In this document: positions 43,838 to 60,565 of the stretch, piece by piece
Layout of the letters: each line of letters starts with the position of its first letter
Position numbering within the stretch: the first letter of the stretch is position 1
NCBI GenBank assembly: GCA_003712055.1
Contig: RHLJ01000001.1
Coordinates: 868,001 to 932,000, forward strand
Source of the DNA: Balneola sp.
Lineage (GTDB): Bacteria; Bacteroidota; Rhodothermia; Balneolales; Balneolaceae
Length of the DNA: 64,000 nucleotides
Direction: 5' to 3'
Notes under the pieces: generated by a model
What the model was told of the DNA's origin: nothing
Databases searched by the model: none
Seen by the model: only the letters and a program-made list of their open reading frames with translations
Position numbers and translations under genes: made by a program

Positions 43838-43876
43838 GCCCCAACCTGGTGCAAGCTGCCTGTGCTAGTTAGGGGC
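43838..43876. repeat. attC-like imperfect palindrome (a)
   Basis: Read on the minus strand: GCCCCTAACTAGCACAGGCA, then GCTTGCACCAGGTTGGGGC. The outer boxes CCCTAAC and GTTGGGG fit the RYYYAAC/GTTRRRY pattern of integron attC sites; the inner parts are imperfectly paired. It follows directly on the stop of the 44190 gene. Confidence 0.5.
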
Positions 43877-44190
43877 TATTCATCTAAATCGATACTAATT
43901 TCAAAAGAATCAGAAGAAATTTTCAGATCGTATTCTTCTTTTAATTTGTTTAGGAGCTGCTCGTTGAACCTATTCATTTTAATAGTTTCTTCTGCCCAGC
44001 ACTTATTTGAAGACACTAAAGCTTTTGCTTGTCCAAGATCAATTTTTCTTGCTTTCCTAATTATTTTTATAGCATCTATCATTGAAACATCAAGTGCTTT
44101 CAGATAACATAACACTGTTTGCTCTTCAGTTCCCTTTTTAAGCTCTATCAAGCATAGTTTGATTAGTTTTTCACTATCGTAATACTTCAT
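43876..44190 (-). CDS. Candidate immunity protein of tip cassette 3
   Basis: 104 residues, soluble, helical and charged, with no signal peptide. It starts one base after the stop of the (decayed) toxin part of tip 3, the spacing expected for a toxin-immunity pair. The motif ALDVSMIDAIKIIRKARKIDLGQAKALVSSNKCW resembles the small 'ribosomal L7/L12-like/immunity' helical proteins, but I cannot name a family. Confidence 0.55.
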   Translation of the reverse strand: MKYYDSEKLIKLCLIELKKGTEEQTVLCYLKALDVSMIDAIKIIRKARKIDLGQAKALVSSNKCWAEETIKMNRFNEQLLNKLKEEYDLKISSDSFEISIDLDE

Positions 44191-44191
44191 T

Positions 44192-45218
44192 TTAATAATT
44201 ATTCAAATTTAGTGTAAGATCAATAGATTTACCAGGACTTGCAGAACTACTGTTGGGCACTCTATCACCAGTAATTCTTAATTTATCATAGCCTAGATCT
44301 TTTGCAGCATTAATAAGTTCAGTTTTATTATTTAATACAGTACCAAGTATTTCATTTTCTAAAGAACCGCCTGCAGAATTATACACAGTTATATTCTCCA
44401 AAACTAACTCAAAGAGTTTTTCCTTGATTAGAAGGCAAGTTCTTGTATTGTTTTTTCACCTCTTTTGAGATTGCATTTGCAACTTTTACACCATCTGCAC
44501 CAACCTCATGTAAATGCCGAAAAGTATGAGAAACTTGGTTGTAATTGTACCAAAAGAAAGGTTGAATGTACTACCACCTGCTTTAACAACCATCGAAAGA
44601 CCTTTCCCTAATACATACCCACCAACCAATCCAATAGAAGCATCTCTCCACATTCCAAAAAGAGCTTGAGAGGATGTTTGATAGGTTATGTTCCCTTTAC
44701 TATCCCAAGACACTTTTACCTTACCATCAAAAGCAAATACTATATCATCAATTATACCATTTACCCAAGCATCATATTGATCACGGTCAGTAATCTCAGT
44801 GGTAGAACCATCAGCATTTCTAACGCCATCCCAATCTGTTTCGCCATCTGTAGTCATGTCATCTATAACATCCTGAGTTGTATGAACTACCAAGGCATTA
44901 TCCTCCCCGTCATCATATACTGCTTCTCCATTCACGTAATAAACAGTCCGACCATCAGGGTCAATGGCATTCAACGGATTGTTCATTACATACGCATAGG
45001 GTGAAATATCTGGGTAAAGCTCATGAGCTGGGTCTATTTGCATCATCCGCCCTGTTGCTGGATCCATCCCTCTGGCAATCATGTGGTAGATATCCAATCC
45101 CGCTTCGTCATCTAACTCATGTCCTGTAAACTTGTAGTTGTCGTTGGGGTTGGCTGTGTTATTAGATCGCCCCGGCATTTCCAGGCCAAAGGGGTAATAA
45201 TCATCATGCCCCAGTACA
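44192..45218 (-). pseudogene. RHS tip cassette 3 (truncated, frameshifted)
   Basis: The first part (to about 44540) reads LGHDDYYPFGLEMPGRSNNTA...DIYHMIARGMDPATGRMMQIDPAHELYP, the conserved RHS core, followed by a variable region. The homology to other tips starts abruptly at VLGHDDYYPFG (about 45218), with the upstream part missing. Near 44530-44545 the frame should shift to KVSHTFRHLHEVGADGVKVANAISKEV, and again near 44405-44445 to ITVYNSAGGSLENEI...LRITGDRVPNSSSASPGKSIDLTLN. These look like one decayed C-terminal toxin domain spread over three frames, so the cassette is inactive as is. Confidence 0.7.
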
Positions 45219-45661: not shown

Positions 45662-46159
45662 TTACTCAAATTTGAATCTCCCATACTCCAAATCTGGATA
45701 GGTACCATATTCAAAATAGATGTACCCATCCCTGATAATAAGATCTCTTACTGGCTCATTGATTCTCTTTTGAAATACAATAGACAAGTCTTCTTTTTTG
45801 AGCACTAACAATTTAGAGTAGGTTGGAAAAACCAGAAATTTCCAACCCGAATCAAGCTGAGGTAAACCAGTTATTAAACCTAGGTTATCATTATCAACAA
45901 ACCGAATATAAACTCGGTTCGGGAATGATTTAGAGATTCCACCATACTTAATTTCAGTGCCTAGATCCTCCAATTCATATCCTTGATCCAAGAAGCTTTG
46001 AATTGGAGATTGGTTTTTTATAAATAGATCTTTTGCATCATTATCTAGCTTTTCAAAACTACTGCTGCTTAAAAACCAATAAGAAGTAAATGCCAAGAAT
46101 GCAAGCGGTATTATGTAGTAAGCTTTTTTCAAATGTTTATTTTCTCGTTTAGTTTTCAT
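45662..46159 (-). CDS. Candidate immunity protein of the lipase-like toxin fragment
   Basis: 165 residues. An N-terminal hydrophobic anchor (AYYIIPLAFLAFTSYWFL) leads to a probably periplasmic domain of alternating beta strands (VYIRFVDNDNLGLITGLPQLDSGWKFLVFPTYSKLLVL...). It overlaps the end of the 46556 ORF by 11 bases, the arrangement of a toxin-immunity pair. A periplasmic immunity protein fits a periplasm-acting lipase. No named family recognised. Confidence 0.55.
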   Translation of the reverse strand: MKTKRENKHLKKAYYIIPLAFLAFTSYWFLSSSSFEKLDNDAKDLFIKNQSPIQSFLDQGYELEDLGTEIKYGGISKSFPNRVYIRFVDNDNLGLITGLPQLDSGWKFLVFPTYSKLLVLKKEDLSIVFQKRINEPVRDLIIRDGYIYFEYGTYPDLEYGRFKFE

Positions 46160-46556: not shown

Positions 46557-46656
46557 TACGCTTACGCTAGCTGGGGATCTGTTGTTGATGTTTTTATTAG
46601 AGTATCCTACTATCTCAATTCTCTCGTCAGCTGTACGGCAGTAAGACTAGTTGGGG
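46550..46656. repeat. attC-like junction region (c)
   Basis: Two related motifs on one strand flank 55 bases without a gene: CCAGCATTACGCTTACGCTAGCTGGGG near 46550-46576, and GTCAGCTGTACGGCAGTAAGACTAGTTGGGGG near 46627-46655. The second overlaps the stop codon of the 46886 gene. Confidence 0.4.
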
Positions 46657-46886
46657 GTATTAATACTCAAAGCCAAAAATATAAACCCTGAAAAAAGTAC
46701 TACAAAACCCATTATAAGAAGTACATATAAAACTTTGTGTTCTTCTCTTGCAAATTTGTATAGGTTGAACTTCTCTTTTTGAGTTTTGTAATCATACTTT
46801 CTAAACTGATGAATAATTAAAATTAAATTAATTATTGTTAACCAGATTATTCCTACTCGAAATACGGTAAATGTTAAATCTGACAT
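46647..46886 (-). CDS. Small membrane protein, paralog B
   Basis: 79 residues, two helices (FRVGIIWLTIINLILIIHQF and VLYVLLIMGFVVLFSGFIFLAL). It shares its layout and many residues with the gene at 47214-46978 (MSD..F..FRVGI.WL..INLIL, and KFA.E..K.LY.L...G....FSGF). It lies just before the tip-2/lipase junction. Likely immunity-type or a duplicate of it. Confidence 0.55.
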   Translation of the reverse strand: MSDLTFTVFRVGIIWLTIINLILIIHQFRKYDYKTQKEKFNLYKFAREEHKVLYVLLIMGFVVLFSGFIFLALSINTPN

Positions 46887-46977
46887 AAATAAATTACTTT
46901 AAGTTATTATTAAACTATTTCTTACTGCAAATATATTCTTGAAATGAAGCTATTCTAAACTAACCATCTTTAATTTT

Positions 46978-47214
46978 TTAAGCCGTAAGTGGATTCAAAA
47001 ATAATATCACAAATCCTGAAAAAAATATTATAAGTCCTATTAAAAAAAGAGTGTACAAAGTTTTATTATTTTCTTTAGCAAATTTAATTGATCCTAAAAA
47101 ATCCTTCGGTTTTTCAGAATCATTATTTTTTCGCATTGAAATAGTCAAAATTAAATTAATAAGTATTAACCATGTTATTCCTACAAGAAATAGGACAAAA
47201 GCTATATCTGACAT
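46978..47214 (-). CDS. Small membrane protein, paralog A (candidate immunity of tip 2)
   Basis: 78 residues; helices FVLFLVGITWLILINLILTI and TLYTLFLIGLIIFFSGFVILFL. It is the first gene after tip cassette 2 (105 bases from the stop at 47320) and may give immunity. The tandem paralog follows 91 bases later. Confidence 0.55.
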   Translation of the reverse strand: MSDIAFVLFLVGITWLILINLILTISMRKNNDSEKPKDFLGSIKFAKENNKTLYTLFLIGLIIFFSGFVILFLNPLTA

Positions 47215-47319: not shown

Positions 47320-48564
47320 TTAATCCTGTTTAACCCATTCTTCTCCATTCCAAGTATAAGTTCCTTGTTCCGTATTTTGAACATTCTCGGAGGCAAATTT
47401 TTCATCAAACCCCTCAATTTTAGCTTTCGCTTCTTTATAAGCAGATTCAAAAGCATTCAAAAAAGCTTCTGCTTCTGATTTAGAAAACCCATAGTCATTT
47501 ATTAATGAATTTAATACTCCTTTAAGGCCATCTTCCTCAATATTACCTAATCCTTTTACCGTAGTATATGCTAACTCACCATATGCTCCTACAAAATTAC
47601 CGAAACCCCAACCTGGTAATGAAAAGGTAGTACCTGAAGCTGAGTTATCGTTTTTTCCGAAAAAGTCGCTTGTAAAGTTACCTTCTAAACTAAATGCACT
47701 TAATGAAGCAACTTGTAGTGCAGCTCCATAATTAGTTCCCCATCCGCTTAAATTATATATAGTATCAAGTCCACCGTAAGATGAAAGTTCAACAGAAGCA
47801 CCATAACCTGCACCAACTCCTCCGGCTACTCCTGCAGTCCTTACTAGTCCCACATTATTATTATCATCAACTGCTAACCCTACTGATAGTGATCCTCCTA
47901 AAAACTTATACATTCCTCTCACTGTTACCTGAAATGTAATTACCCAAAGACCATTAGGGTCAACATATCTTGTAGGATTATTTAGAACGTAGTTATATGG
48001 AGAAACCGAATGATAGATATATTCAGACGGGTTTGTCATATGAATAAGTGGATCAATACTTAGCCATCTTCCTGATATTGGATCCATCATTCTCGCTCCT
48101 GCGAATACTAAATCTAACCCAGCTTCTTTATCCCGCTCATGCCCGGTGAACTTATACAGATCATTCGGGTTGGAGGTATTGTTGGAACGTCCAGGCATAG
48201 TTAGCCCAAAAGGGTAATAATCATCATGACCCAGTACATTTCCATCCCGGTTTACCGTGGCACGTACCGTTCCCAGGTGATCTTTCACAAAGTATTTTCG
48301 CCCTTTGTGCTCCTGGATGGTGTAGGTTTTGGTTACCAGGCTGCTCCAGTCCCCGGAGTTATCCCTTACTTTAAACCCAACTGTTACCGTAGTAACTCCA
48401 CTAGCTAATTGGTAACAGCCATTAGAAGGGCTACCATGCAAAGCAAAGCAACGAGTAAAGGAGGCCGTGTAGGAGGAGGTAGCCTGCAGGACACCATTAA
48501 TATAAAACTCGGTATAGTTTACATAACCGTCCGGGTCATAACTGGAACCCGAAGAAAAAACCAC
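47320..48564 (-). CDS. RHS tip cassette 2 (PKD-core-variable C-terminus), without a proper start
   Basis: 414 residues from a GTG inside the PKD domain; upstream the frame runs into the previous gene with no ATG. Residues 1-80 are the end of a PKD/Ig-like domain. KGRKYFVKDHLGTVRATVNRDGNVLGHDDYYPFGLTMPGRSNNT and ARMMDPISGRWLSIDP are the RHS core signature (about residues 85-190). The remaining 220 residues are glycine-rich, with LAVDDNNNVGLVRTAGVAGGVGAGYGASVE and a C-terminal helix (GFSKSEAEAFLNAFESAYKEAK). The toxin type is not recognised. It shares 388 bp with tip 1. Confidence 0.7.
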   Translation of the reverse strand: MVFSSGSSYDPDGYVNYTEFYINGVLQATSSYTASFTRCFALHGSPSNGCYQLASGVTTVTVGFKVRDNSGDWSSLVTKTYTIQEHKGRKYFVKDHLGTVRATVNRDGNVLGHDDYYPFGLTMPGRSNNTSNPNDLYKFTGHERDKEAGLDLVFAGARMMDPISGRWLSIDPLIHMTNPSEYIYHSVSPYNYVLNNPTRYVDPNGLWVITFQVTVRGMYKFLGGSLSVGLAVDDNNNVGLVRTAGVAGGVGAGYGASVELSSYGGLDTIYNLSGWGTNYGAALQVASLSAFSLEGNFTSDFFGKNDNSASGTTFSLPGWGFGNFVGAYGELAYTTVKGLGNIEEDGLKGVLNSLINDYGFSKSEAEAFLNAFESAYKEAKAKIEGFDEKFASENVQNTEQGTYTWNGEEWVKQD

Positions 48565-48577
48565 ATCTTCAAGGTTA
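48190..48577 (-). repeat. 388-bp repeat, copy in tip cassette 2
   Basis: It covers the PKD part and the YD core through DDYYPFGL.MPG. The copy at 49892-50279 is exactly as long, with roughly one base in nine changed by eye. Long enough for homologous recombination. Confidence 0.8.
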
Positions 48578-48583
48578 GATTGG

Positions 48584-49063
48584 TTAGGTAGGGAAAGTAG
48601 GTAAATTGTCTCTATATCTTTCCTTTGAAATTATTTTGACTTCTGGAAAAGATTCCATTGCTCTTAAAATCTTCTCCTTAATTTTCTCATAATCTTGAAA
48701 AATCCACCCTATAGCTATTGATTTTCTTTTTGGACCATAAATTTTTATAAAATTTGACCCTACCTCGACTCTAGTAAACTCTTTATAATAAATCTTCAAT
48801 GACCTTATTCTCTTAAACTCGATAAATTCATTTGTAACTATCAGTTTATTCTTAAAGGAAAAGGCAAAGCCTAGAACTACTAAAAGAAAACTAGGAATCA
48901 CAACCACCAATATTAAACCTGACTTAGAATAGGAAGGATCATACCAAAGATTAGGAAACTTGATAAAAACATAGATGCCAAAAAGAATCCAAAAAGAAGT
49001 CATAACAAAACGAACAAAAATGCGCGGTCTAAAAGTATCCATAAAATAGTTTATGCTTTTCAA
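48584..49063 (-). CDS. Membrane protein with PH-like domain (candidate immunity of tip 1)
   Basis: 159 residues. Two membrane helices (VMTSFWILFGIYVFIKF and GLILVVVIPSFLLVVLGFAF) precede a beta-rich cytosolic part (KNKLIVTNEFIEFKRIRSLKIYYKEFTRVEV.SNFIKIYG) that looks like a bacterial PH/YdbS-like domain. The ATG overlaps the tip-1 stop by 4 bases (ATGA), typical of a coupled toxin-immunity pair. Membrane placement suggests a membrane- or periplasm-directed toxin. Confidence 0.6.
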   Translation of the reverse strand: MKSINYFMDTFRPRIFVRFVMTSFWILFGIYVFIKFPNLWYDPSYSKSGLILVVVIPSFLLVVLGFAFSFKNKLIVTNEFIEFKRIRSLKIYYKEFTRVEVGSNFIKIYGPKRKSIAIGWIFQDYEKIKEKILRAMESFPEVKIISKERYRDNLPTFPT

Positions 49064-50313
49064 TCATTTTCGGGTTTTTGTTCCTTTATCTCAATAGTAA
49101 TATTTACTTCATCATTTTTATCAAGTAAACCTTGAATCCAATTACCTAGCCTAGTTAAAGCATTTTCTGTTCCAGAACTACTCATGCCTCCAGAAACTTT
49201 TTTAGCGACTTTTTTTCCTGCTGATGCAGCAAACCTTTGCCCAGCTGCATTTCCTAGCTTTGAACCTGCAGCTCCACCTATTGCATCTGTTATAACATCC
49301 CCAGCTTCTGTAGATTCTCCTGAGATCATTCTGTCATATTGTCCAGCAATGACTTCAACACCAGCTCCAACTAATATATCATAACCAGTTCCTGGAATTA
49401 TATCACTAAGTTGATCTGCTACTATCGATCTTGTGGCTGCTCCAGTTGCATCAGGCTCAGAAGGGAATATACCATACTCAAATGATACACCTACAGCTGT
49501 CGCGGCAGGAGCTTTGAAAGCTCCATATGCCAATATGTGCCCTTTTATTGCCGTCTCTGTTTCAGTTTTAAAACTTTCTACATCAAAGCTTTCACTTTGT
49601 GCCCTCTCTGCTGTAGCATTTGTCCAGCCTAATATACACGGAATACACCCAGGACCACTTTTAGCACTCATCCCAGTAGGATCCACCAAATTCAATGGAT
49701 TATTATGCACGTAATGGTATGGAGTCCAACCAGCAAACTGGTCAGATAACGGATCAATCTGCATAAACCTACCGGTAATTGGATCATAGGTTCGGGCATT
49801 CATGAAATCTATAGTCAAGCTTGCTTCATCATCTCGCTCGTGTCCAGTGAACTTGTAATTATCATTAGAGTTAGCTGTGTTATTAGATTGCCCAGGCATA
49901 ACTAAGCCAAAGGGATAGTAATCATCATAACCCAATACATTTCCATCCCGGTTTACCGTGGCACGTACGTTGCCAATATGGTCATTCACAAAGTACTTTC
50001 TTCCTTTGTGTTCCTGGATGGTATAGGTCTTGGTGACCAGGCTGCTCCAGTCTCCGGAGTTATCCCGTACCTTAAAACCTACGGTTACTGTGGTTGCTCC
50101 ACTGGCTAGTTGGTAACAGCCATTGGAGGGGCTGCCATCCAAGGCAAAGCAACGAGTAAAGGAGGCTGTGTAGGAGGAAGTAGCCTGCAGAACACCATTA
50201 ATATAAAACTCGGTATAGTTCACATAACCGTCCGGGTCATAACTAGAGCCGGAGGAGAAGACCACATCTTCCAGGTTATAAAACCAGGTTTGGTTTGGGG
50301 TAGAAGTAACCAC
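49060..50313 (-). CDS. RHS tip cassette 1 (PKD-core-variable C-terminus), without a proper start
   Basis: 417 residues from a GTG. The frame extends upstream about 10 codons (IIPPVA) to a stop in the 44-bp repeat but contains no ATG or signal peptide. The domain order is PKD-like (to about 95), then YFVNDHIGNVRATVNRDGNVLGYDDYYPFGLVMPGQSNN and ARTYDPITGRFMQIDPLSDQF...NPLNLVDPTG (core). The last 210 residues are Ala/Gly-rich: TGYDILVGAGVEVIAGQYDRMISG, then AGSKLGNAAGQRFAASAGKKVAKKVSGG, a pretoxin/pore-like region. No known toxin family is recognised. Confidence 0.7.
   Translation of the reverse strand: MVTSTPNQTWFYNLEDVVFSSGSSYDPDGYVNYTEFYINGVLQATSSYTASFTRCFALDGSPSNGCYQLASGATTVTVGFKVRDNSGDWSSLVTKTYTIQEHKGRKYFVNDHIGNVRATVNRDGNVLGYDDYYPFGLVMPGQSNNTANSNDNYKFTGHERDDEASLTIDFMNARTYDPITGRFMQIDPLSDQFAGWTPYHYVHNNPLNLVDPTGMSAKSGPGCIPCILGWTNATAERAQSESFDVESFKTETETAIKGHILAYGAFKAPAATAVGVSFEYGIFPSEPDATGAATRSIVADQLSDIIPGTGYDILVGAGVEVIAGQYDRMISGESTEAGDVITDAIGGAAGSKLGNAAGQRFAASAGKKVAKKVSGGMSSSGTENALTRLGNWIQGLLDKNDEVNITIEIKEQKPEND
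49892..50279 (-). repeat. 388-bp repeat, copy in tip cassette 1
   Basis: See the copy at 48190-48577; both are exactly 388 bp with no indel noticed. Confidence 0.8.
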
Positions 50314-50323
50314 CGCTACGGGG

Positions 50324-50367
50324 GGTATGATAGGTTCCCATAATTCAGATAATTAAGCTAGGCTAAT
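50324..50367. repeat. 44-bp perfect direct repeat, copy 1
   Basis: Starts GGTATGATAGGTTCCCATAA and ends TAAGCTAGGCTAAT. The identical 44 bases are at 50909-50952. In each copy it covers the end of a lipoprotein gene and the ATGGGAACCTATCATACC bases that begin the next frame. Confidence 0.9.
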
Positions 50368-50926
50368 CACATTTTATATTTGGTCGCTCAATAAAGCCTC
50401 TATCACTTACCACTTTTTTATATTTGGTAAGGTCATCTTCACAAAAGAAATAGCGAACGCTTTTCCCATCGCTTTTTACCCTAATATCTATTTCAGGAAG
50501 CTTGAGTAAACCATTTTCATCATCCTGGAGTATGTCATACTTTTCATATACTGCCAACGCTTCAGCAGTTAATGCATAGTCATTATCCCACCAAAGGAAA
50601 AGTTTACCATCCTTCTCGATAAAGCGAGAAGGCATTTTACCTATACTTCCTGGCACAGTTTCTTCTGTTTCAAGCAAGTAAATAAAATTCTCATTTATCA
50701 TAACTAATATAAGTCCATTGTAGGCATCTAAATATTTAATATTTACCCGAAAAACCTGGTACTTATTATACATTTTTGTTGTGTTTGAAAAATCAAGAAT
50801 AGCATTCTCAATTGCTTCTTCTTTCCCCCCATCGCGAATCAACTCTACTTCAAATGGTTTTGTAGTATTACACCCAAAAACTAACAAACAAATCATCAGA
50901 AGTTTTCGGGTATGATAGGTTCCCAT
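50363..50926 (-). CDS. Lipoprotein, tandem paralog 2 (candidate immunity)
   Basis: 187 residues. The signal LLMICLLVFGC ends in a lipobox Cys. The mature protein is nearly a copy of the neighbour at 50948-51544, sharing KPFE.ELIRDGGKEEAI.NAILDFSNT and PLTAEALAVYEKYDILQDDENG-type stretches, ending YFFC..DLTKYKKVV. The first six residues (MGTYHT) come from the 44-bp repeat, evidence that this copy arose by tandem duplication. Confidence 0.75.
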   Translation of the reverse strand: MGTYHTRKLLMICLLVFGCNTTKPFEVELIRDGGKEEAIENAILDFSNTTKMYNKYQVFRVNIKYLDAYNGLILVMINENFIYLLETEETVPGSIGKMPSRFIEKDGKLFLWWDNDYALTAEALAVYEKYDILQDDENGLLKLPEIDIRVKSDGKSVRYFFCEDDLTKYKKVVSDRGFIERPNIKCD

Positions 50927-50952
50927 AATTCAGATAATTAAGCTAGGCTAAT
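50909..50952. repeat. 44-bp perfect direct repeat, copy 2
   Basis: Identical to 50324-50367; it spans the junction between the two lipoprotein genes. Confidence 0.9.
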
Positions 50953-51544
50953 TACAGTTTAACTTTGGTCGATTAATAAAGCCTTCATCAGTTACCACTT
51001 TCTTATATTTGGTAAGGTCGTTTTTACAAAAGAAATAACGTACTTCTGTATCACTAAATTTTACTTCGTAGTCTTTATCTGGAAGTGTAATCATACCATT
51101 TTCATCATCCTGAAGTATGTCATATTTTTCATATACTGCCAATGCTTCGGCAGTCAATGGATAATCATCATCCCACCAAAAAAATAATTTATCATCTTTA
51201 TCAATGAATCGGGTAGGCAATCTACTTTTTGTATTTCCAGGTACTGATTCTCTTGTTTTGAGTAAATAAGTATAATTTTCCCTTATTAAAACCAACATGA
51301 GTCCATCATAGTTATTTAAATATTTGATATTTATCGAAAAAATCTCATAATCATTATACTTCTTTGCAGTATTGGAAAAATCAAGAATAGCATTCGCAAT
51401 TGCTTCTTCTTTCCCCCCATCACGAATTAGTTCTGCTTCAAATGGTTTTGTAGTAGTACAAGTACACCCAAAGACTAACAAACAAATCATCAGAAATTTT
51501 TGGGATTGGTTCATTTTTGCAGCTCTTTTCATAACTAATTTCAA
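50948..51544 (-). CDS. Lipoprotein, tandem paralog 1 (candidate immunity of the JAB-like tip)
   Basis: 198 residues with a signal KFLMICLLVFGC ending in a lipobox Cys; the lipidated chain would sit in the periplasm. Its ATG overlaps the stop of the tip-toxin gene by 4 bases, so it is translated with it, as expected for an immunity protein. Mature part: LDFSNTAKKYNDYEIFSINIKYL, then FFWWDDDYPLTAEALAVYEKYDI. No known family; the immunity role is inference from position. Confidence 0.72.
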   Translation of the reverse strand: MKLVMKRAAKMNQSQKFLMICLLVFGCTCTTTKPFEAELIRDGGKEEAIANAILDFSNTAKKYNDYEIFSINIKYLNNYDGLMLVLIRENYTYLLKTRESVPGNTKSRLPTRFIDKDDKLFFWWDDDYPLTAEALAVYEKYDILQDDENGMITLPDKDYEVKFSDTEVRYFFCKNDLTKYKKVVTDEGFINRPKLNCN

Positions 51545-52884
51545 TAAGTAGTTCTAGGAATAGTAGTATATGGAAATCTAGGAAGCCTACTTCCGTTCTT
51601 TCGATCACGGGTCAAAATATAAAACTGTAAGTTTGGATTTTTGTCGAGTTCACCGTCTCTTTCATTAAAATCGGGGCCCGATGGTGACAATCTATCCGCG
51701 AGACTCAGGCTATAGTCAATATGTGTATGGAAAAGTCCAGTGTTCAATAACCCGTACCCCTTGCTTGCTCCATAACCTTGAGCATGATGTTTCAGATTGT
51801 TGCGATACCTACCCAACGTAATATGACTGGTTTCTCCTCCTTCTGTTTCTGAGAAATATGCTCCGCCTATTTCTTTGTTCACATGTTCAGAAAGTGCTAA
51901 AGCAAATTCTTCCACTTGTTCTGCGGTAGGTCCATCTCCACCTACTGCTATGATATTGTCGTCATCCCGAAAATTCATTCCTTCTTCTACTATCCCATCA
52001 GCTATGTTATCAATAGCTACTTTGGGTTTCCCTTTTTGAGATTTTCTTACCATCCAGCCAAATAGCTTACTGTCTCCTTTTCGCTTTACATTGCCTTCCT
52101 TATCAGAATGTAAAATGCGATCTGGCTCGTCATTAATGTCACCAACTCTTACAAGTTTTCCAGTTTTATAATCAATAATGTAGTCGGTTAACCCATCCGG
52201 ATCTACCCTCAACATTGGATTGTTTTGTACATAATTATAGGGCGTTACCCATTCCCTTCTGGAAGAAAGCGGATCAATCTGAGCAAATCTACCTATTACC
52301 GGATCATAGCCTCTGGCATTGGCATGGTACATTTCCAATCCTGCCTCATCATCTACTTCATAGCCGGTATACTTGGTATCATCTTCAGGGTTAGAGGTAT
52401 TGTCAGACCTTCCAGGCATTACTTTTCCAAAGGGGTAATAGTCGTCATAGCCTACTACGTTACCATCTACATCTACACTGGTACGTACACTTCCCAAATG
52501 ATCGGCAATGTGATAAATGCGCTGAGGGCGCTTTACGGTTACCGAAATGCTTTTGGTATTTGTTAACCCGATGTTGTTCCACACTTTTAACGATACTGTA
52601 TAACTCTGCTCATGCACATTAGCTGGTAAAGTAAATGTGTGAGTTTTAGTAGACCCATTATAGGTAGAACCTTCAATGGTCCATTGATACGTAGTGATAT
52701 ACCCGCTACAATTATTGGGGGTACTCGTGGTGCCTGAAAACTGAATTTGGTCTCCGCTTCTAAAGGTTAAACCGGTTGGTGTATTTGTAATATTGGCGGT
52801 AGGTGCAAAGGTACATTCTTCGGTTGCAAAGGCTAAAGAAACAGCCAGGAAAATAAATAGAGCGCTTAAGACTAATCTTTTCAT
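51541..52884 (-). CDS. Secreted RHS tip protein with PKD domain and JAB-like C-terminal toxin
   Basis: 447 residues. Signal peptide MKRLVLSALFIFLAVSLAFA, then a PKD/Ig-like domain (FRSGDQIQFSGTTSTPNNCSGYITTYQWTIEG; 25-120). The RHS core follows: IYHIADHLGSVRTSVDVDGNVVGYDDYYPFGKVMPGR and ARGYDPVIGRFAQIDPLSSR (about 125-215). The C-terminus has GLFHTHIDYSLSLADRLSPSGPDFNERD: an HxH followed by SxxD, the metal-binding pattern of JAB/JAMM peptidases, as in JAB-like RHS toxins. A Glu upstream would be in EEFALALSEHVNKEIG. It overlaps the TPR gene upstream and the lipoprotein downstream by 4 bases each. Confidence 0.82.
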   Translation of the reverse strand: MKRLVLSALFIFLAVSLAFATEECTFAPTANITNTPTGLTFRSGDQIQFSGTTSTPNNCSGYITTYQWTIEGSTYNGSTKTHTFTLPANVHEQSYTVSLKVWNNIGLTNTKSISVTVKRPQRIYHIADHLGSVRTSVDVDGNVVGYDDYYPFGKVMPGRSDNTSNPEDDTKYTGYEVDDEAGLEMYHANARGYDPVIGRFAQIDPLSSRREWVTPYNYVQNNPMLRVDPDGLTDYIIDYKTGKLVRVGDINDEPDRILHSDKEGNVKRKGDSKLFGWMVRKSQKGKPKVAIDNIADGIVEEGMNFRDDDNIIAVGGDGPTAEQVEEFALALSEHVNKEIGGAYFSETEGGETSHITLGRYRNNLKHHAQGYGASKGYGLLNTGLFHTHIDYSLSLADRLSPSGPDFNERDGELDKNPNLQFYILTRDRKNGSRLPRFPYTTIPRTTY

Positions 52885-54581
52885 TGGTTCCCTCCTGTTG
52901 AGTCTGCAGAAACCGGAGTAGGCCTTTTATCCTTTTTCCTTTCTCTTTTTGCTTTCCATTCTGCATCCAGCTCTTGCAGCCGTATTCTCGCACGGTCTGC
53001 ATTCGCTCCGGCTTTTCCATCTCCTTCTACTTCTAATAAGGTTTCCATGGCCTGCTGCCTTAGGCCCTGCCTTATTTGCCAGTCAGCTTTTAATAACCTC
53101 ACCCTGTCCAACCGTTCGGGTTCTTGTACCGTCCATTCCAGCCATTCCAGATCATGGGTAAAGGTGCTGTCCATTAATTCCTCATCCTCCAGGCGCATTT
53201 CTACCCAGCGGATGCGGGTTCGTTGTTTTTGGCTGGAGGTACCGGTGTCTTTCAGCCCATTCATCGCTCTACGAAGCATGGCTTTATTTTTACCCCTTTC
53301 TCCAGCCTGAACCATATACTCCCAACCTATTCTCCGCATTTGCTCGTTGGGATGTTCTTCAATGAGCTGTTCAAGAGCATCTTTGGCTTTTACTATTTCG
53401 CTGGAATCTTCCTCTTGCAGGTAGCTAAACCCAATGGACTGTAAGGCATATCCACGTATGGCTTCCTGATCATATTCTGGTGCTAGTGCAAGTACTTCCC
53501 GCATGGCCTGCCGGGATTCGGCTCTCCTCCCACTATTCATTAACACACTTCCTTTCAGGTATCGGTAGTGCGCTTTTCTATAAGGATCCGGGGCTTTGTT
53601 GTACCAGTCTTCTACAATACTAAGTGCTAACTCCGATTGATCATTACCATTCAATACTCTGGACAGGTATCCATGAAAATCATCGTTGAAGGTCTCACGA
53701 TAATGGCTTCGGTATTGGGCGTACATGGCTTGTGCACCTGAATAATCGCCCTGATCAATGAGTTCCATGGCCCGGTAGTACTCGTAGTTACGGGTTCCGC
53801 CATAGGTTTCGGCTGCTGCTGCGTAGTTGTTTACCTGAAGCCCGGTTCCCTGTACCGCTTCTACTCTACCTGTAGATTTATTGTAGCTAAACTCAGCAGT
53901 ATAGGAACTGGCTTCGGAATCCAGTACCAATAAATGATCCAGAAATCCGGGAAGCTGTTCCCAACGCCACACTCCTTCGTATTCCCACACGAATTTAATG
54001 GGAAAATCAGCAGTGGTTCCTGCCGGGAAGTTAACGGCGGCTTCCCATATCCCGTTGCCCTGGTCTTGGAGATGGGTTATCCCATCCGGCATATTCCAGC
54101 TTAAGTCTCCATAGGAGCCCATAATCCCTATTGCATCCGGTGCCTCTCCATTCAGAGATAACTGATCGGCATTGAAATGGAAAATGATGGTTGTATTTTT
54201 ACTGAGTCGTGGCCCTCCCATAAAATGGATGACATCATTGAACTCCGTTCTGTTTTGTACCGGGTAATATTTGCGATTAGCCCAGCCTTCGGGTTCTTCC
54301 TGGCCGTTTTGGGAGACTATGTAGTATTTGTATTCAAAAAATTGATCGCCCGGGCTAAAGCTTCCTGTCCAGCTTCCATCTTGTTGCTGCTCAAGAATTG
54401 CAGCAATGGTAGCAAATGTGACTCCATCACTGCTCGTTCGCAGTTCAATGCGATCGTTAGAAGTCGCAACACCTTCAGGTACAGTAAGCGTAATCGGTAC
54501 TTGGCTACGAATTTCGGTTGAAAGTACAGCCAGGGCAAGAAGGGTGATAATGAATAGTGGTGTTTGGTTAAATCGTTTCAT
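52881..54581 (-). CDS. Secreted protein with two beta-sandwich domains and TPR region, between RHS shell and tip
   Basis: 566 residues. Signal peptide to about 27 (LSTEIRSQ). Two Ig/CBM-like beta domains (about 28-115 and 125-235: IIFHFNADQLSLNGEAPDAIGIMGSYGDLSWNMPDGITHLQ...WEAAVNFPAGTTADFPIKFVWEYEG, like starch-binding E-set folds). TPR repeats follow (about 255-530: RAMELIDQGDYSGAQAMYAQYRSHY and more) and a basic tail. It sits between the two halves of the RHS machinery in one operon, so I infer an assembly or adaptor role. The family is unknown. Confidence 0.75.
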   Translation of the reverse strand: MKRFNQTPLFIITLLALAVLSTEIRSQVPITLTVPEGVATSNDRIELRTSSDGVTFATIAAILEQQQDGSWTGSFSPGDQFFEYKYYIVSQNGQEEPEGWANRKYYPVQNRTEFNDVIHFMGGPRLSKNTTIIFHFNADQLSLNGEAPDAIGIMGSYGDLSWNMPDGITHLQDQGNGIWEAAVNFPAGTTADFPIKFVWEYEGVWRWEQLPGFLDHLLVLDSEASSYTAEFSYNKSTGRVEAVQGTGLQVNNYAAAAETYGGTRNYEYYRAMELIDQGDYSGAQAMYAQYRSHYRETFNDDFHGYLSRVLNGNDQSELALSIVEDWYNKAPDPYRKAHYRYLKGSVLMNSGRRAESRQAMREVLALAPEYDQEAIRGYALQSIGFSYLQEEDSSEIVKAKDALEQLIEEHPNEQMRRIGWEYMVQAGERGKNKAMLRRAMNGLKDTGTSSQKQRTRIRWVEMRLEDEELMDSTFTHDLEWLEWTVQEPERLDRVRLLKADWQIRQGLRQQAMETLLEVEGDGKAGANADRARIRLQELDAEWKAKRERKKDKRPTPVSADSTGGNQ

Positions 54582-54597
54582 GATGTATTCCCTCCTC

Positions 54598-57500
54598 TTA
54601 GTAATTAATAATTCCTAGCCCACCGGGAAGTACCCAGTAACTCAGGTTCGAGCCTTCATACACCGCTATTATTTCTCCGGCTGCTCCGCGTACATACCAG
54701 GTGGTGGTGCCACCAACCAGTTCTTTTTTCACCCTGTTTCCATCACTATCGTAAGCAAACTTCAAGGTTCCTGAGCTTGTAACGGTTTGGTCAGGAAGGT
54801 TACGCCAATCATAGCTAATGCTGGTAATGTTTTGAAGATCATTTTGGGTAACATTTCCATTTGCATCATGTGAGAAATCATTATTAGGGCCATTTAGAAT
54901 AACCGTAAGCAGCTTATTGGTGTTATTTACATATACATGGTTAATAACATCAGAACTTGTGGAATTAGGGAACCGCTCAATTTTCTCGAGATTCCCATTC
55001 CTATCGTACTCATAAGCCACATCATAATTTGAACTATTACAGCTTGCACCTCCGTAACATGCTTCGGCTAACCGATTTGCATTATCATATGAATAATCAT
55101 AGGTAACCCCGGAAGTAGAAATAGCAGATTGTTTCCAGGTCTGTTTACTGATATTTCCGGAGTTATTGTAGTTCAAAGCCAAAGAAAAACGATCCCCGCC
55201 AGCACTTGTACTTACACTACCGTTGTTAATTTTATCCAGCCATCCCTGAACCCTGTAGGTGTAATCAAGGGTTTGAGCTAAGTCGCCTGCAGGCCCAAGC
55301 TTTACCTGTTTCACTGATCCGTCTGCAAAGTATACATATTCTGCTTCCCTAACCGCCGTAGCAGGATCACTGTATTCGTTGGAATTCACATATTGTAATC
55401 TCCCAAGTTCATCATACTCATACCAAAAGTAGAAATCTTCGCCAGTCGTTTGTGAGTCAAAGAATACTCTGGTTGTTCTTCCTAACTCGTCATAGGTATA
55501 ATAGATGGTTTTATCATGGGAACTGGATTGCCCCGGGAGCCGTTTTTCAATCCATTCAACCAGACCAAGATCATTATAAGAATACCAGGTATATCCCCAA
55601 TTACCCAGATTGGAGAGGTCTTGATAGTCGACTCGTGTAATCCGTCCTTCCAGGTTTTGAGCACCAGGTGCAAGATTAGTACCATCGTAATGGTATTTTA
55701 TATACTGAGTATAACTGAAGTATGGGAAGTCCTGATCGTTTATATCGGCTTCATCACTAAAGTCTGCCGAAGTATTTCTTTTACCTATTTCAGTGGGGCG
55801 ATCCAGGTCATCATACTTGGTATAGTAGTAATGATCAGATACTGCATTTAATGCAGGGTCTTTATGAAACCGTAATCTCCCTTTGTCATCATAGCGATAC
55901 TCATGAGAATCTGTTTGATCAGTTAGCTTTTTCTCCACAAGCCTACCTAGCTCATCATAGGTATATGTGGTAGGGAGATTTCTGGGATCCTCAACCCGAA
56001 TCAGGTTTCCTCTTAAATCATATTCAAATTCGGTTATAAGATCACAAGTAGGTAGGGCTGGTGGTGTAGGATCCGAACACGTTGTCTTTGTTTGCCCGTC
56101 GAGAGCCCCATCCCCGTCCATGTCCACTCCGCTTGCTATGGTTCTTCCCCATCCATCGGTATAGGTAATCGTCTTTTTACCATCCGGGTCTTCAACAACC
56201 ACTTTATTTAGTGTATTAACAGCCCACGTTTTTCCGTTTATGGTAAACGTTTCTGTTGTATTCAGCCCATAGGAAGTATTGACATCATAAGCACTTCCTC
56301 CAGGCATTCGTGTTTCAATTGTACGAGCAAGAGGACTATCTTCATGATTATTGTAGGTGTACGGGTAATTTGCACCTCCGGAAGTTCCATCGTAATAATT
56401 ATCCAGATCAGAATCCCAAAATACTGTTCCAGGTGCGCTAAAGGTAGGCCCAAAAAGATCATTCAAAAAAGTTGATTGGTTTGATTTAATGAATGGCCTC
56501 GATACTGCTTCGGGAATGCTCCGAGCATCATATTCCATACCCGATATAATAGATTCGCTGCCACCTCTTTGTTGGGTTTGAACTTCACGACCCAAGCCAT
56601 CCAAATAGGATACCGTTTCAATACCCTCAAATAAAGAGGTTACTTCTGTAGATGAGAGAGTTCGGTCATACAAACGGAAATCTGCAATAAAGCCTTCTAA
56701 ATCTCCCCAGGCTTCATCTGTTGGTCGAGCAATTCCTAAGCTAAGGGGAGAACTTCCACTGTTTGCGAGCGCATTCTTCCATTCTGTCCAGGTCTGGATT
56801 AATTCACCGTCTAAATATAGTTTAGTTTGATCAGCAGATGCACTGTAAGTCAATACTAAGTGATACAACACATTATTTGTGATCCCGGCATCAACAGCTC
56901 GACGAGTATCTTCTGTACCCGACCCTGTATCTAGATAGATCTCTATATCAGTGCCCTCAGTACCTATTTCAAGGTTATCATTAGAAGCTGATGAGGATTG
57001 AGCAACCAACACATTATTGATTAGGTGATTGGTATCTAAGCTGGTTCCGGCTGCATCAGAATATCTCTTAAACCAAAGTGAAACAGAGAATGCAGACGCA
57101 TTATCCATAAATGATACATCTCCAAGGCTTACATAATCGTTATCACCATCGAATACAACAGGTTGTGATTGTGCTTCTTCGGGCTCTTCCAGCCCATCTA
57201 CCATCATTATCTGTGAAACGTAATTTGGATCGGTAGCACTGTAACTACCTCCGTTACCCGATATAGAATAGTAATACTTGTTCATCAACTCAGCGGACAG
57301 AGGAGAAAAATTCGTCTTTAGCCTTCCAAATTCGTCATAACCAAATCCTACGCTATTGGAATTTTCATTAGTTGTCGAATTAATTCTGCCCAATGCATCG
57401 TAGGCTGCGGATGTACAAAAGTCATCACTCGAACATGCTGAACCGTCTAGCCCATTAAATCCCTTTTGTATACCAGTAAGATATTTACCACTAACCCCGT

Positions 57501-60150
57501 TAATTCCGGTATTAGAAAAAGGCGAGGTGTTATTTCCGTAATAGTACTTCGTTTCATCATCTAGCGCGTCTTCTACTTCAAGTACATTTCCATAACTATC
57601 ATACTCATTGATTTTGAAGGTATTAATAGACGTAGTAGACCCCGGATCATCTGGTGTCGTCCCGGTATCCCAAACCCAATACTCCGAAGGCATCCAATTT
57701 CCGGTGGCCCCGGTTATACTAGTACTCCACTTCAACCATTTCTTACTTAACACTGCATTTGAATTGGCGTTTTTTACCGTTACCGAATACGGGTAAGAGA
57801 GTAAGTTCAACCCCTCCATAGCGGTATAATTTATTCCTGAGCGATTAATAGTGTGCGCATATTCGTATTCAGTAGCTACTGAATCCTGGTCATCAGAATT
57901 AGTTCTTACTTCTTTTGTTAACTGAAGGTGGTCTTCATCATATTCAAATCTGGTGGTAGTGGTTAATTCTGAACCTTGTGAGGCTGGATCATAAATAGTG
58001 ACTTCCTGCTTTTTTAAAAAATTCCATGATGAAATATGCTCGTATTTAATCAAGAAGGTTTGAGGATAGTTCATTGTAATACCGACTTGATCGAGATCTT
58101 CCGCATTTGTAGTCGATATCCCTAAATATCGATTATGTGTTGGTGAGGTTGATTCATCTTCAACAATACTATCATAATATTCATTAACCGTTTTTTGAAG
58201 TAACTGATCGCTGGAATTGTAAACAGAATGCGTAAGTAGTAGCCCTCTTCTGCTATCCATACTACTTCGGTACCCAAAGCCCCAATCAAAATTAGAAACT
58301 GTATCCAGGTAATAATCATTAGGATCCATGTACTTTTTATAGTACTCCATCCAGCCCCAGTTTAATTCTTCCAGCGTACTCCCGGAAAATGTCTGGAGAA
58401 AAAGATCAACAATAGCAGTTTCTAGGACTTCATCGGGATAATCCTCAGGAGAAGTAAAAGTACTTACTTCATAGCCATACTCTCCGGTAGCTCCATGAGT
58501 TACTTTAACTTCGTTATACCCCACAATCCCTCCTAGTGTTGTTCCAAGAGGAATTAATGAATGATCCAGTAACCCATAGGTGATATCATATTCGCCACCT
58601 ATCTGAGAATTCAAATATGGGATTTGGTAAGTAGGTTCAATAACTAAAGCACCACTACTTCCGGTAGTAACTCCTACTGTATAGGAGTAACTTTTCACAA
58701 TAGGTGTAGCTCCGGAATGCGAAACGGATTCGATTTTCTTTATGCGCAAGCCTCCTGCCGTTTTATTTGAGGAAAGACTAGACGATCCGACAGCGTCATA
58801 TTGATTAGCTTCAAAAGTAAACTCAGTATACCCACCCGTTGGATAGTATATTTTTGATAACATTCCAGATTTCATGGCTGCTTCATCTGGCTGTCTTATA
58901 ACATCGTCCGGGCCAGTCATCCCCAAATAATCTGTTTGTGGAATACTAAAAGGGTGATTTTCAAATTCGTTGTTAAAATACCCCCAATGATCAACAGCAG
59001 AGGGGTACTTGGCAGGAAACACGGTAGGGTTGATATCTCCACCTACTCCCTGAACAAAATCAAGGTAAGCTGGTAATGTTACATTTACGGTAGTTGTTAC
59101 AAAAGCATTGGTGTTATAATTGTAGTACTTAAATGGGAAGCCCGTTTCATTATACTCAAAAGAGTAGGTCTCCAATGCGTTATCATTTGGGTCGGCTATA
59201 TCTACCGAATTAAGCTTCAAACGCTTAAATAAGTCTGGCTCGTTTACCAGATTGGTATGCCCTAATAGCAAGGATACATCTTCGTTGAAGTAATCATAAT
59301 TGAAATTCCATCTTCGTACTTCTTCACATCCGGAAGAAATTTTATGACATAGACGAATACCTAATAGTTTGTACTCCTGAGCCTGTAATCCCAACGGGAA
59401 ATCTGAATAATCTGTGTAATCATAAGTATCGTCGTATGAAATGAATATTGGGGCATCGTATCTGTCCGGGGATGTATTTGTATCGAAATATAAAATATGG
59501 GAATTGGATTCGATCCGACTTAATCTCCTTACCTTATGAACAGATTGAGTATTATTTACTGCTGTCTTAAAAAAAGTAACCGGAGTATAGCCAACAAAAG
59601 TTGGATAGGAAGAGTAATCCGGAGTTGAAACACCATCGTCTGAAAAAGAGACCGACCTGTTATAATAGTAGGCTGTTTCCTGATCTGTATAATATAGATC
59701 AATGGTATCGGATGAATTCGGAAACTCTATCTTGGTTAAATACCAAGAAATCCTATTCTGAACTACTGAGCCCGATTGTGCTCCACTTATTAATCCAGAT
59801 ACACCTGTTTGAATATGTATTTCATCTTTATCAAAGGTGTATTTGATGCCGTTTTCATCGGTTATACTCCATGAGATAATTCCATAGTTGTCAAGGTTAT
59901 TAACTTCTATTTTTAAGTTACTATGAGGAATTGTCTGAATGATAACTGAATTATCTACCTGGTCATTGGCATCTAACAAATCCGGAGGGAGTACAAACTG
60001 CCCCGAATAAGGCCCAAAGTTATAGAAAAAGACATCCGGCTCGGTATCATAGGAGCCGCTTCGTAATCTATCTAAGCTATTGGTTGTAAGGTTGGTTACA
60101 GAATCTTTCTCAGCTTGGGTAAGAGTACTCCCATCTACTCCATAATCCAT
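54598..60150 (-). CDS. Giant YD-repeat (RHS-like) shell protein, main part after the frameshift
   Basis: 1850 residues from the ATG at 60150. The frame begins inside the conserved N-terminal region started by the 60565 ORF. It contains SpvB/TccC-like beta-rich parts, a LamG/ConA-like insert (about 997-1177: VVFDGDNDYVSLGDVSFMDNASAFSVSLWF...LTYSASADQTKLYLDGELI...GFIADFRLYDRTLSSTEV) and many YD repeats (about 1370-1815: FEYDLRGNLIRVEDPRNLPTTYTYDELGRLV, YEYDRNGNLEKIERF). It ends GTTTWYVRGAAGEIIAVYEGSNLSYWVLPGGLGIINY, exactly where a normal RHS protein continues into the DHLG/YYPFG core. That core lies in the separate gene at 52884. Confidence 0.85.
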   Translation of the reverse strand: MDYGVDGSTLTQAEKDSVTNLTTNSLDRLRSGSYDTEPDVFFYNFGPYSGQFVLPPDLLDANDQVDNSVIIQTIPHSNLKIEVNNLDNYGIISWSITDENGIKYTFDKDEIHIQTGVSGLISGAQSGSVVQNRISWYLTKIEFPNSSDTIDLYYTDQETAYYYNRSVSFSDDGVSTPDYSSYPTFVGYTPVTFFKTAVNNTQSVHKVRRLSRIESNSHILYFDTNTSPDRYDAPIFISYDDTYDYTDYSDFPLGLQAQEYKLLGIRLCHKISSGCEEVRRWNFNYDYFNEDVSLLLGHTNLVNEPDLFKRLKLNSVDIADPNDNALETYSFEYNETGFPFKYYNYNTNAFVTTTVNVTLPAYLDFVQGVGGDINPTVFPAKYPSAVDHWGYFNNEFENHPFSIPQTDYLGMTGPDDVIRQPDEAAMKSGMLSKIYYPTGGYTEFTFEANQYDAVGSSSLSSNKTAGGLRIKKIESVSHSGATPIVKSYSYTVGVTTGSSGALVIEPTYQIPYLNSQIGGEYDITYGLLDHSLIPLGTTLGGIVGYNEVKVTHGATGEYGYEVSTFTSPEDYPDEVLETAIVDLFLQTFSGSTLEELNWGWMEYYKKYMDPNDYYLDTVSNFDWGFGYRSSMDSRRGLLLTHSVYNSSDQLLQKTVNEYYDSIVEDESTSPTHNRYLGISTTNAEDLDQVGITMNYPQTFLIKYEHISSWNFLKKQEVTIYDPASQGSELTTTTRFEYDEDHLQLTKEVRTNSDDQDSVATEYEYAHTINRSGINYTAMEGLNLLSYPYSVTVKNANSNAVLSKKWLKWSTSITGATGNWMPSEYWVWDTGTTPDDPGSTTSINTFKINEYDSYGNVLEVEDALDDETKYYYGNNTSPFSNTGINGVSGKYLTGIQKGFNGLDGSACSSDDFCTSAAYDALGRINSTTNENSNSVGFGYDEFGRLKTNFSPLSAELMNKYYYSISGNGGSYSATDPNYVSQIMMVDGLEEPEEAQSQPVVFDGDNDYVSLGDVSFMDNASAFSVSLWFKRYSDAAGTSLDTNHLINNVLVAQSSSASNDNLEIGTEGTDIEIYLDTGSGTEDTRRAVDAGITNNVLYHLVLTYSASADQTKLYLDGELIQTWTEWKNALANSGSSPLSLGIARPTDEAWGDLEGFIADFRLYDRTLSSTEVTSLFEGIETVSYLDGLGREVQTQQRGGSESIISGMEYDARSIPEAVSRPFIKSNQSTFLNDLFGPTFSAPGTVFWDSDLDNYYDGTSGGANYPYTYNNHEDSPLARTIETRMPGGSAYDVNTSYGLNTTETFTINGKTWAVNTLNKVVVEDPDGKKTITYTDGWGRTIASGVDMDGDGALDGQTKTTCSDPTPPALPTCDLITEFEYDLRGNLIRVEDPRNLPTTYTYDELGRLVEKKLTDQTDSHEYRYDDKGRLRFHKDPALNAVSDHYYYTKYDDLDRPTEIGKRNTSADFSDEADINDQDFPYFSYTQYIKYHYDGTNLAPGAQNLEGRITRVDYQDLSNLGNWGYTWYSYNDLGLVEWIEKRLPGQSSSHDKTIYYTYDELGRTTRVFFDSQTTGEDFYFWYEYDELGRLQYVNSNEYSDPATAVREAEYVYFADGSVKQVKLGPAGDLAQTLDYTYRVQGWLDKINNGSVSTSAGGDRFSLALNYNNSGNISKQTWKQSAISTSGVTYDYSYDNANRLAEACYGGASCNSSNYDVAYEYDRNGNLEKIERFPNSTSSDVINHVYVNNTNKLLTVILNGPNNDFSHDANGNVTQNDLQNITSISYDWRNLPDQTVTSSGTLKFAYDSDGNRVKKELVGGTTTWYVRGAAGEIIAVYEGSNLSYWVLPGGLGIINY

Positions 60151-60565
60151 AATCCATAATGGGATGGTCGTGAATATATTCTGCAGTAAAAAGATAGGCT
60201 AAAGAATATGGATCATCATCTGCATCTCCTCTTGTAGAACGGGTAATAACCCCACCGGCATTAAGAGACCACCCTAAACCAACCCAGCTTGCAACTTCCT
60301 GTGCTTTAATACCCCCGGCATGATAGCTCAATGATATAGGCAATGAATAGGAAGCTCCGGTAATTGTGGTAATAGGGATAGATATATCTGGCACTCCAGT
60401 ATATAGACTGACTGGTGTTTCTCCATACTTGCCTAATGAATAAGCGGTAGGAGACTGAAAGGACTTGTAGGAATAATCATCAAATCCCTGACGTGCAATT
60501 AGCTCAATTGGGTTTGACAGAATAATACATGCAATAAAGCATATGGCTTTGAATAGAGCTCTCAT
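60110..60565 (-). CDS. Giant YD-repeat protein, N-terminal part before the frameshift
   Basis: 151 residues: signal peptide (FKAICFIACIILSNPIELIARQ) and the typical start of Bacteroidota RHS shells, YSLGKYGETPVSLYTGVPDISIPITTITGASYSLPISLSYHAGGIKAQEVASWVGLGWSLNAGGVITR. The last correct residues are HDHPIMDYG. The frame then leaves the protein at three tandem copies of a 7-base unit and ends after 13 aberrant residues. With two copies it would run into the 1850-residue frame, giving about 1990 residues. Confidence 0.82.
   Translation of the reverse strand: MRALFKAICFIACIILSNPIELIARQGFDDYSYKSFQSPTAYSLGKYGETPVSLYTGVPDISIPITTITGASYSLPISLSYHAGGIKAQEVASWVGLGWSLNAGGVITRSTRGDADDDPYSLAYLFTAEYIHDHPIMDYGLWSRWEYSYPS
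60140..60160 (-). repeat. (ATTATGG)x3 heptanucleotide tandem repeat at the frameshift
   Basis: Plus strand (CCATAAT)x3; minus strand (ATTATGG)x3. Removal of one 7-base unit joins the two RHS frames as HPIMDYGVDGSTLTQAE. Confidence 0.92.

Follow-up and report, generated by a model that had tools for sequence, protein, structure and literature searches.

In the Rhs C-terminal displacement arrays of Enterobacteriaceae, an expressed gene comes first and is followed by start-less core-plus-tip fragments with unrelated C-termini and variable core length, the orphan and resident cores being near-identical (Jackson 2009, PMC2935791). Orphan cdiA-CT/cdiI and rhs-CT/rhsI modules have neither a translation start nor an export signal, keep their immunity gene, and have been proposed to form a reservoir (Poole 2011, PMC3150448; Koskiniemi 2014, PMC3967940); for rhs-CT/rhsI, exchange was demonstrated in Salmonella (Koskiniemi 2014, PMC3967940). 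In Vibrio T6SS immunity arrays, an incoming effector-immunity unit takes the place of the previous effector, whose immunity gene is kept (Kirchberger 2017, PMC5361080). Finally, in TcB/TcC, the Rhs cocoon is made from two polypeptides, several separate cargo subunits are available per shell, and an orphan tcC can serve a shared shell (Busby 2024, PMC11067744). The locus described here resembles each of these systems in part: a head gene is followed by start-less core-plus-tip fragments with unrelated C-termini, the cassettes have no start or export signal but keep a putative immunity gene, and the predicted cocoon is encoded in two genes. It differs from the displacement arrays in that the unit that appears to be displaced is a separate tip gene (signal peptide-PKD-core-toxin), with cores that are not near-identical to the resident one; from the orphan rhs-CT/rhsI modules in that none of the expressed genes of this genome has a matching arm; and from the Vibrio clusters in that the toxin parts are almost whole and belong to Rhs tips, not to T6SS auxiliary effectors.

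We analysed a window of 64,000 nucleotides of Balneola sp. (G000:C1:868001-932000, G000 being the genome under study). Every feature discussed is encoded on the minus strand; the list runs from the shell and the head of the array downwards:

54598..60565, minus strand: Rhs/YD shell (RHS_repeat, DUF6443) without Rhs-associated core, frame interrupted near 60150
52881..54581, minus strand: signal peptide, CBM_20-like and TPR protein; its stop overlaps the tip1 start (ATGA)
51541..52884, minus strand: tip1, the array head, with signal peptide, PKD, Rhs-associated core and toxin C-terminus
50948..51544, minus strand: putative immunity gene 1, lipoprotein-like
50363..50926, minus strand: tandem-duplicated paralogue of immunity gene 1, 68% amino-acid identity
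49060..50331, minus strand: orphan tip2, which has a PKD-like domain and the core but neither start nor signal peptide; its C-terminus matches no Pfam or NCBIfam toxin family
48584..49063, minus strand: putative immunity gene 2 (imm2), two TM segments; 3' end overlaps the tip3 frame
47320..48606, minus strand: orphan tip3, tip2-like in its 5' part; past a break near 48070, the end of its core and its C-terminus ('DPNGLWVIT' family) resemble the fused Rhs of G001:C2
46978..47214, minus strand: putative immunity gene 3 (imm3), two TM segments
46647..46886, minus strand: paralogue of immunity gene 3, 45% amino-acid identity
46149..46640, minus strand: orphan tip4 remnant, a fragment with a GHSHGG lipase-type motif and no core
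45662..46159, minus strand: putative immunity gene 4
44192..45215, minus strand: orphan tip5 remnant; its first residues are the core motif GHDDYYPFG, and its frame is broken short of the end
43876..44190, minus strand: putative immunity gene 5

Immunity-like genes have undergone tandem duplication and divergence twice in this array, at 50363-51544 (68% at the amino-acid level) and at 46647-47214 (45%).

Shell and tip are separate genes here, and the tip has its own signal peptide and PKD domain. The core is located in the tip gene and is absent from the shell, in which a profile search gave no TIGR03696 match; the Rhs cocoon is thus genetically split just before the 'DHLGNVR' core. In sequence, the core of the tip is similar to the terminal part of TcdB2-TccC3 cocoons (about 1e-8 to 1e-9). 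Whereas TcC has a conserved N-terminal domain of ~680 residues, the Balneolaceae tip has only the terminal core (~110 residues), together with a PKD domain, its own signal peptide and immunity genes. No description of this shell/detached-tip layout was found in the literature searched, the TcB/TcC split being the nearest. The TPR stop and the tip start overlap by ATGA in G000 (C1 and C4), G001a and G076 (CAATGA, in one case TAATG), which suggests translational coupling of expressed-type tips in G000, G001 and G076. Signal-peptide-bearing detached tips number ~12 in 6 genomes (G000, G001, G011, G052, G076, G153), an approximate count since it was made by a simple hydrophobicity rule. One complete secreted tip, in G000:C6 (L023 12034-13458), has an immunity-like gene and RND efflux genes as neighbours but no shell nearby. 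In the window, tip1 looks complete and lies upstream of the orphan tips. The break in the shell frame, at 60110-60150, is a tandem direct duplication of 7 bp (ATGGATT), for which inactivation, phase variation by slippage and an error in sequencing are all conceivable; G000 also has an intact shell, at C4.

Downstream of tip1 and its immunity genes come four orphans, of which the tip4 and tip5 remnants are more decayed than tip2 and tip3. A preliminary description of the DNA had reported two tips without ATG or signal peptide, each with its own C-terminus and a different small membrane protein behind it, and this anatomy holds. Tip2 and tip3 are open frames of 423 and 428 codons with no ATG and no hydrophobic N-terminus at the 5' end, their first in-frame starts being internal GTGs at 50313 and 48564. 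Both score above the TIGR03696 cut-off (68.7 and 59.2 bits) and diverge after DPTG/DPNG at the end of the Rhs-associated core, so that, as in orphan Rhs-CT/immunity modules, a core ending in DPxG is present and start and export signal are absent. The C-termini are unrelated, and a different two-TM protein follows each directly (imm2; imm3 and its paralogue). Neither C-terminus matched a toxin family in Pfam or NCBIfam, where core and weak matches alone were returned; a PDB sequence search with tip2 also gave the core and weak matches and named no toxin. For the tip2 C-terminus, no convincing relative was seen among 245 genomes of the class, and none on a full-length gene. Used as a DNA query, the first 400 bp of 47320-50313 (the 3' end of tip3 on the minus strand) matched only itself.

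What the orphans have lost can be read from a complete relative in G011, a genome of another Balneolaceae genus. Its 490-codon tip has a signal peptide, and its PKD-like domain and core match tip2 at 70% up to the end of the core (DPTGMSA), beyond which G011 has its own C-terminus. Because this complete tip carries the same arm, tip2 and tip3 lack only about the first 27-33 residues (~27 in tip2, ~33 in tip3), hardly more than the signal peptide; ATGA-type coupling to a TPR gene is also absent from the orphans. The alignment places their first residues at the start of the mature PKD-like domain, just past the expected signal peptide, and not in mid-domain as had been thought.

The 5' parts of tip2 and tip3 are 93% identical as proteins without a gap (E 5.9e-81), whereas identity to tip1 (52884) is 39%, which bears out the earlier remark that the orphans are closer to each other than to the expressed tip. 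The shared region is not, as first stated, an exactly equal 388 bp. The ungapped match runs from ~48590 to ~48070, roughly 520 bp at an offset of 1701, and 388 bp is not a natural boundary of it: with the ragged first block set aside, DNA identity in blocks of 25 columns is 92, 89, 84, 81, 81, 67, 51 and 57%, then nothing, a gradual fade inside the Rhs-associated core. The two GTGs, being 1749 bp apart, are not at homologous positions. Over the first 127 aligned codons, dS is 0.79 and dN 0.055, a ratio of 0.07, showing that the two arms diverged under strong constraint (purifying selection); the tip2 and tip3 lineages were therefore functional proteins for most of the time since they parted. 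A recent duplication or gene conversion of the arm is ruled out by the dS value, and neutral decay of the arms by the dN/dS ratio. The preliminary description would have abandoned its proposal had there been no other locus with this 5' region and neutral decay of the cassettes; what we found instead is a signal-peptide-bearing tip with the arm in G011, and arms under strong purifying selection.

That proposal was that the cassettes are an active donor reservoir, recombining by homology into an expressed tip of the same cell and so switching the toxin, with the acceptor perhaps at another locus. Protein and family searches of the 99.4% complete G000 assembly found the arm in tip2 and tip3 and at no other locus, so no expressed gene of G000 offers a homologous arm for exchange, and the complete tips of G000 (C1, C4, C6) are 39-43% identical to it. 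RecA-dependent exchange needs identity over a few tens of bases. Uninterrupted DNA identity reaches at most 12 bp between tip2 and tip1, 11 bp between tip3 and tip1 and 20 bp between tip2 and the C6 tip, the last being the longest run with any resident complete detached tip (33 bp between tip2 and tip3 themselves); with runs of 11-20 bp, a present donor role of tip2 and tip3 into the resident tips of G000 appears unlikely. The exchange route known from Salmonella is thus closed in G000, as no resident expressed gene has a matching arm.

Past recombination among tips is another matter. Tip3 is a mosaic, tip2-like to about residue 179 (near 48070), then like a 2225-codon fused Rhs of a sister species (G001:C2; max-chi2 p 0.005); the two have in common an inserted 'YIYHSVSPYNYVLNNP' core segment and the 'DPNGLWVIT' C-terminus, and their C-termini are 37-39% identical, so that the tip3 C-terminus, as in displacement arrays, is also found on a full-length gene. 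In G001:C3, a complete expressed-type tip and an orphan of the same locus are 1.6% divergent before and 14.2% after one breakpoint (p 0.008). These tests permute sites and do not model rate variation, and their p-values of 0.005-0.011 are supportive, not decisive. In G000, the C4 and C6 tips are alike in the 5' part and core and different in their C-termini. In G076, three tandem complete tips with different C-termini accompany one shell and TPR gene and share exact runs of up to 98 bp; between the arms of one locus in G001 and G076, such runs measure 77-98 bp. The sequences indicate that tips of this kind have recombined. In G076:C8 (L074 5504-10857), where the C-termini on tandem complete detached tips are unrelated, a vestigial 'DDYYPFGLTMPGRS' scar precedes the second of them. 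Part of the original proposal therefore stands, namely that these are orphan tip-immunity cassettes and that such tips recombine, and part does not, as no 388-bp arm feeds an expressed tip of G000. The mosaic tips of G000 and G001, the long exact runs within loci of G001 and G076 and the published precedent in evolved Salmonella (Koskiniemi 2014, PMC3967940) all speak for an active donor reservoir; given that no expressed tip of G000 has the arm and that the best exact matches are so short, we hold it to be very unlikely.

We consider it probable that tip2 and tip3 are displaced former heads of the tip locus, produced by Rhs C-terminal displacement, and it is from the sequences that we infer the order of events, the silence of the toxins and the immunity function. 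On this view, each cassette would have begun as an intact tip gene encoding signal peptide, PKD, Rhs core and toxin, followed by its immunity gene. New tip-immunity units would then have entered upstream, each joined, directly behind its immunity gene, to some point within the old tip. The old tip would thereby have lost its start, its signal peptide and its coupling to the TPR gene, so that the toxin fell silent but the immunity gene survived. Toxins of the past would thus be stacked in layers in the array, which today would probably serve for immunity against kin or neighbours that still carry them; a donor role would be possible only with incoming DNA bearing the same arm.

Several observations are in line with displacement. 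Every orphan adjoins a preceding putative immunity gene, and the cut sites differ: the PKD start in tip2 and tip3, the C-terminal domain in tip4, the core in tip5. In G001 and G076, a tip in the array is preceded by a cut-off 3' piece of a TPR gene, as expected under displacement if the cut falls upstream of a complete tip. The G001 piece is 63% identical to the G000 TPR gene, and its own array's TPR gene is absent among the matches listed, suggesting that cassettes cross genomes. The tip3-type C-terminus is on an active fused Rhs in G001:C2, whereas at the corresponding pilin-linked site of G000 (C5) the first orphan carries a related one, which fits sequential C-terminal displacement of the kind reported by Jackson 2009, Poole 2011, Koskiniemi 2014 and Kirchberger 2017. 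The loss of the ATGA overlap from the orphans, the complete G011 version of their type, the low dN/dS between the arms and the lack of the entire array from this site in G001 and G002 point the same way.

Alternatively, horizontal transfer from a pilin-linked Rhs locus could have delivered the orphans as a ready-made block, in which case they would never have headed the present locus. The G011 relative and the tip3 C-terminus (in G001:C2 and in the C5 orphan) are all at a pilin/T2SSF-linked site. Moreover, the array sits in an island absent from G001 and G002: the genes on either side of it, separated by 18 kb in G000, have only 4.4 kb (G001) and 2.5 kb (G002) between them there, and enclose no Rhs genes. 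At the amino-acid level, the arms of tip2 and tip3 share only 39% identity with tip1, far from the near-identity of orphan and resident cores in the published arrays, and at least part of the array may therefore have arrived as a block. However, several differently cut junctions after immunity genes are easier to make singly, and no pilin gene fragment lies beside tip2 and tip3, unlike in G001:C3, so we regard an origin of the orphans wholly as a block as unlikely.

Translation of the orphans might also continue, with the GTGs as starts or through coupling to the immunity gene before them, and the products might then work intracellularly, for instance in toxin-antitoxin pairs. The tip2 and tip3 frames are intact, and both transcription and activity of orphan rhs genes have been reported for Snodgrassella (PMC5727410) and Salmonella (PMC7043789). 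Yet such starts lie inside a structural domain with no signal peptide, and frames orphaned only recently would be intact too: with neutral divergence of 5%, tip2 would still be free of stops with a probability of 0.15 (~15%) and tip3 with one of 0.11. The frames thus imply only that orphaning was fairly recent, and we hold continued translation of the orphans to be very unlikely.

The second, pilin-linked site extends from PilX-like to T2SSF genes. Rhs/tip genes of G001:C2 (L062), G011:C50 (L053) and G000:C5 (L025) adjoin PilO/N_methyl pseudopilins, a PilX-like gene and T2SSF, neighbours that hint at a type II or pilus-like export route. At G000:C5:23050-31575 (L024/L025) and in G060:C1 (L075), an element with an HTH repressor, a 505-aa protein and two tyrosine recombinases lies between orphan Rhs tips. 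The two C5 copies have 2388 identical bases in common, the second being truncated in the first recombinase. The 505-aa protein belongs to no Pfam family and, among the 245 genomes of the class, occurs in the Rhs arrays of G000 and G060, with one distant match in G223. In three cases (C5, G060), the orphan after the element begins exactly at the core motif SDYYPFG; these DYYPFG junctions may reflect site-specific insertion or one inherited junction, and we do not claim them as the mechanism in the window. Integrase-like genes have been reported near Rhs in bee-gut bacteria (PMC5727410), so that a recombinase element accompanying Rhs arrays has precedent.

The process itself, Rhs C-terminal displacement, is already known; what is unusual is that the tip is a separate secreted gene. 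Our reading would carry the C-terminal displacement model over to Balneolaceae, and to loci where Rhs is laid out in two genes and what is displaced is an entire secreted tip gene. More tentatively, the Balneolaceae tip may be a separately exported, interchangeable part, one shell accepting any of several tips that each bring along a signal peptide, PKD, core and toxin of their own; tips would move between shell-TPR and pilin-linked sites, partly by means of the recombinase element, found in the class almost only in Rhs tip arrays, and the orphans of the window would be retired parts. If shell and tip assemble outside the cytoplasm, the toxin could be changed without fusion to the shell gene, an idea that the tandem complete tips of G076 and G001 make testable.
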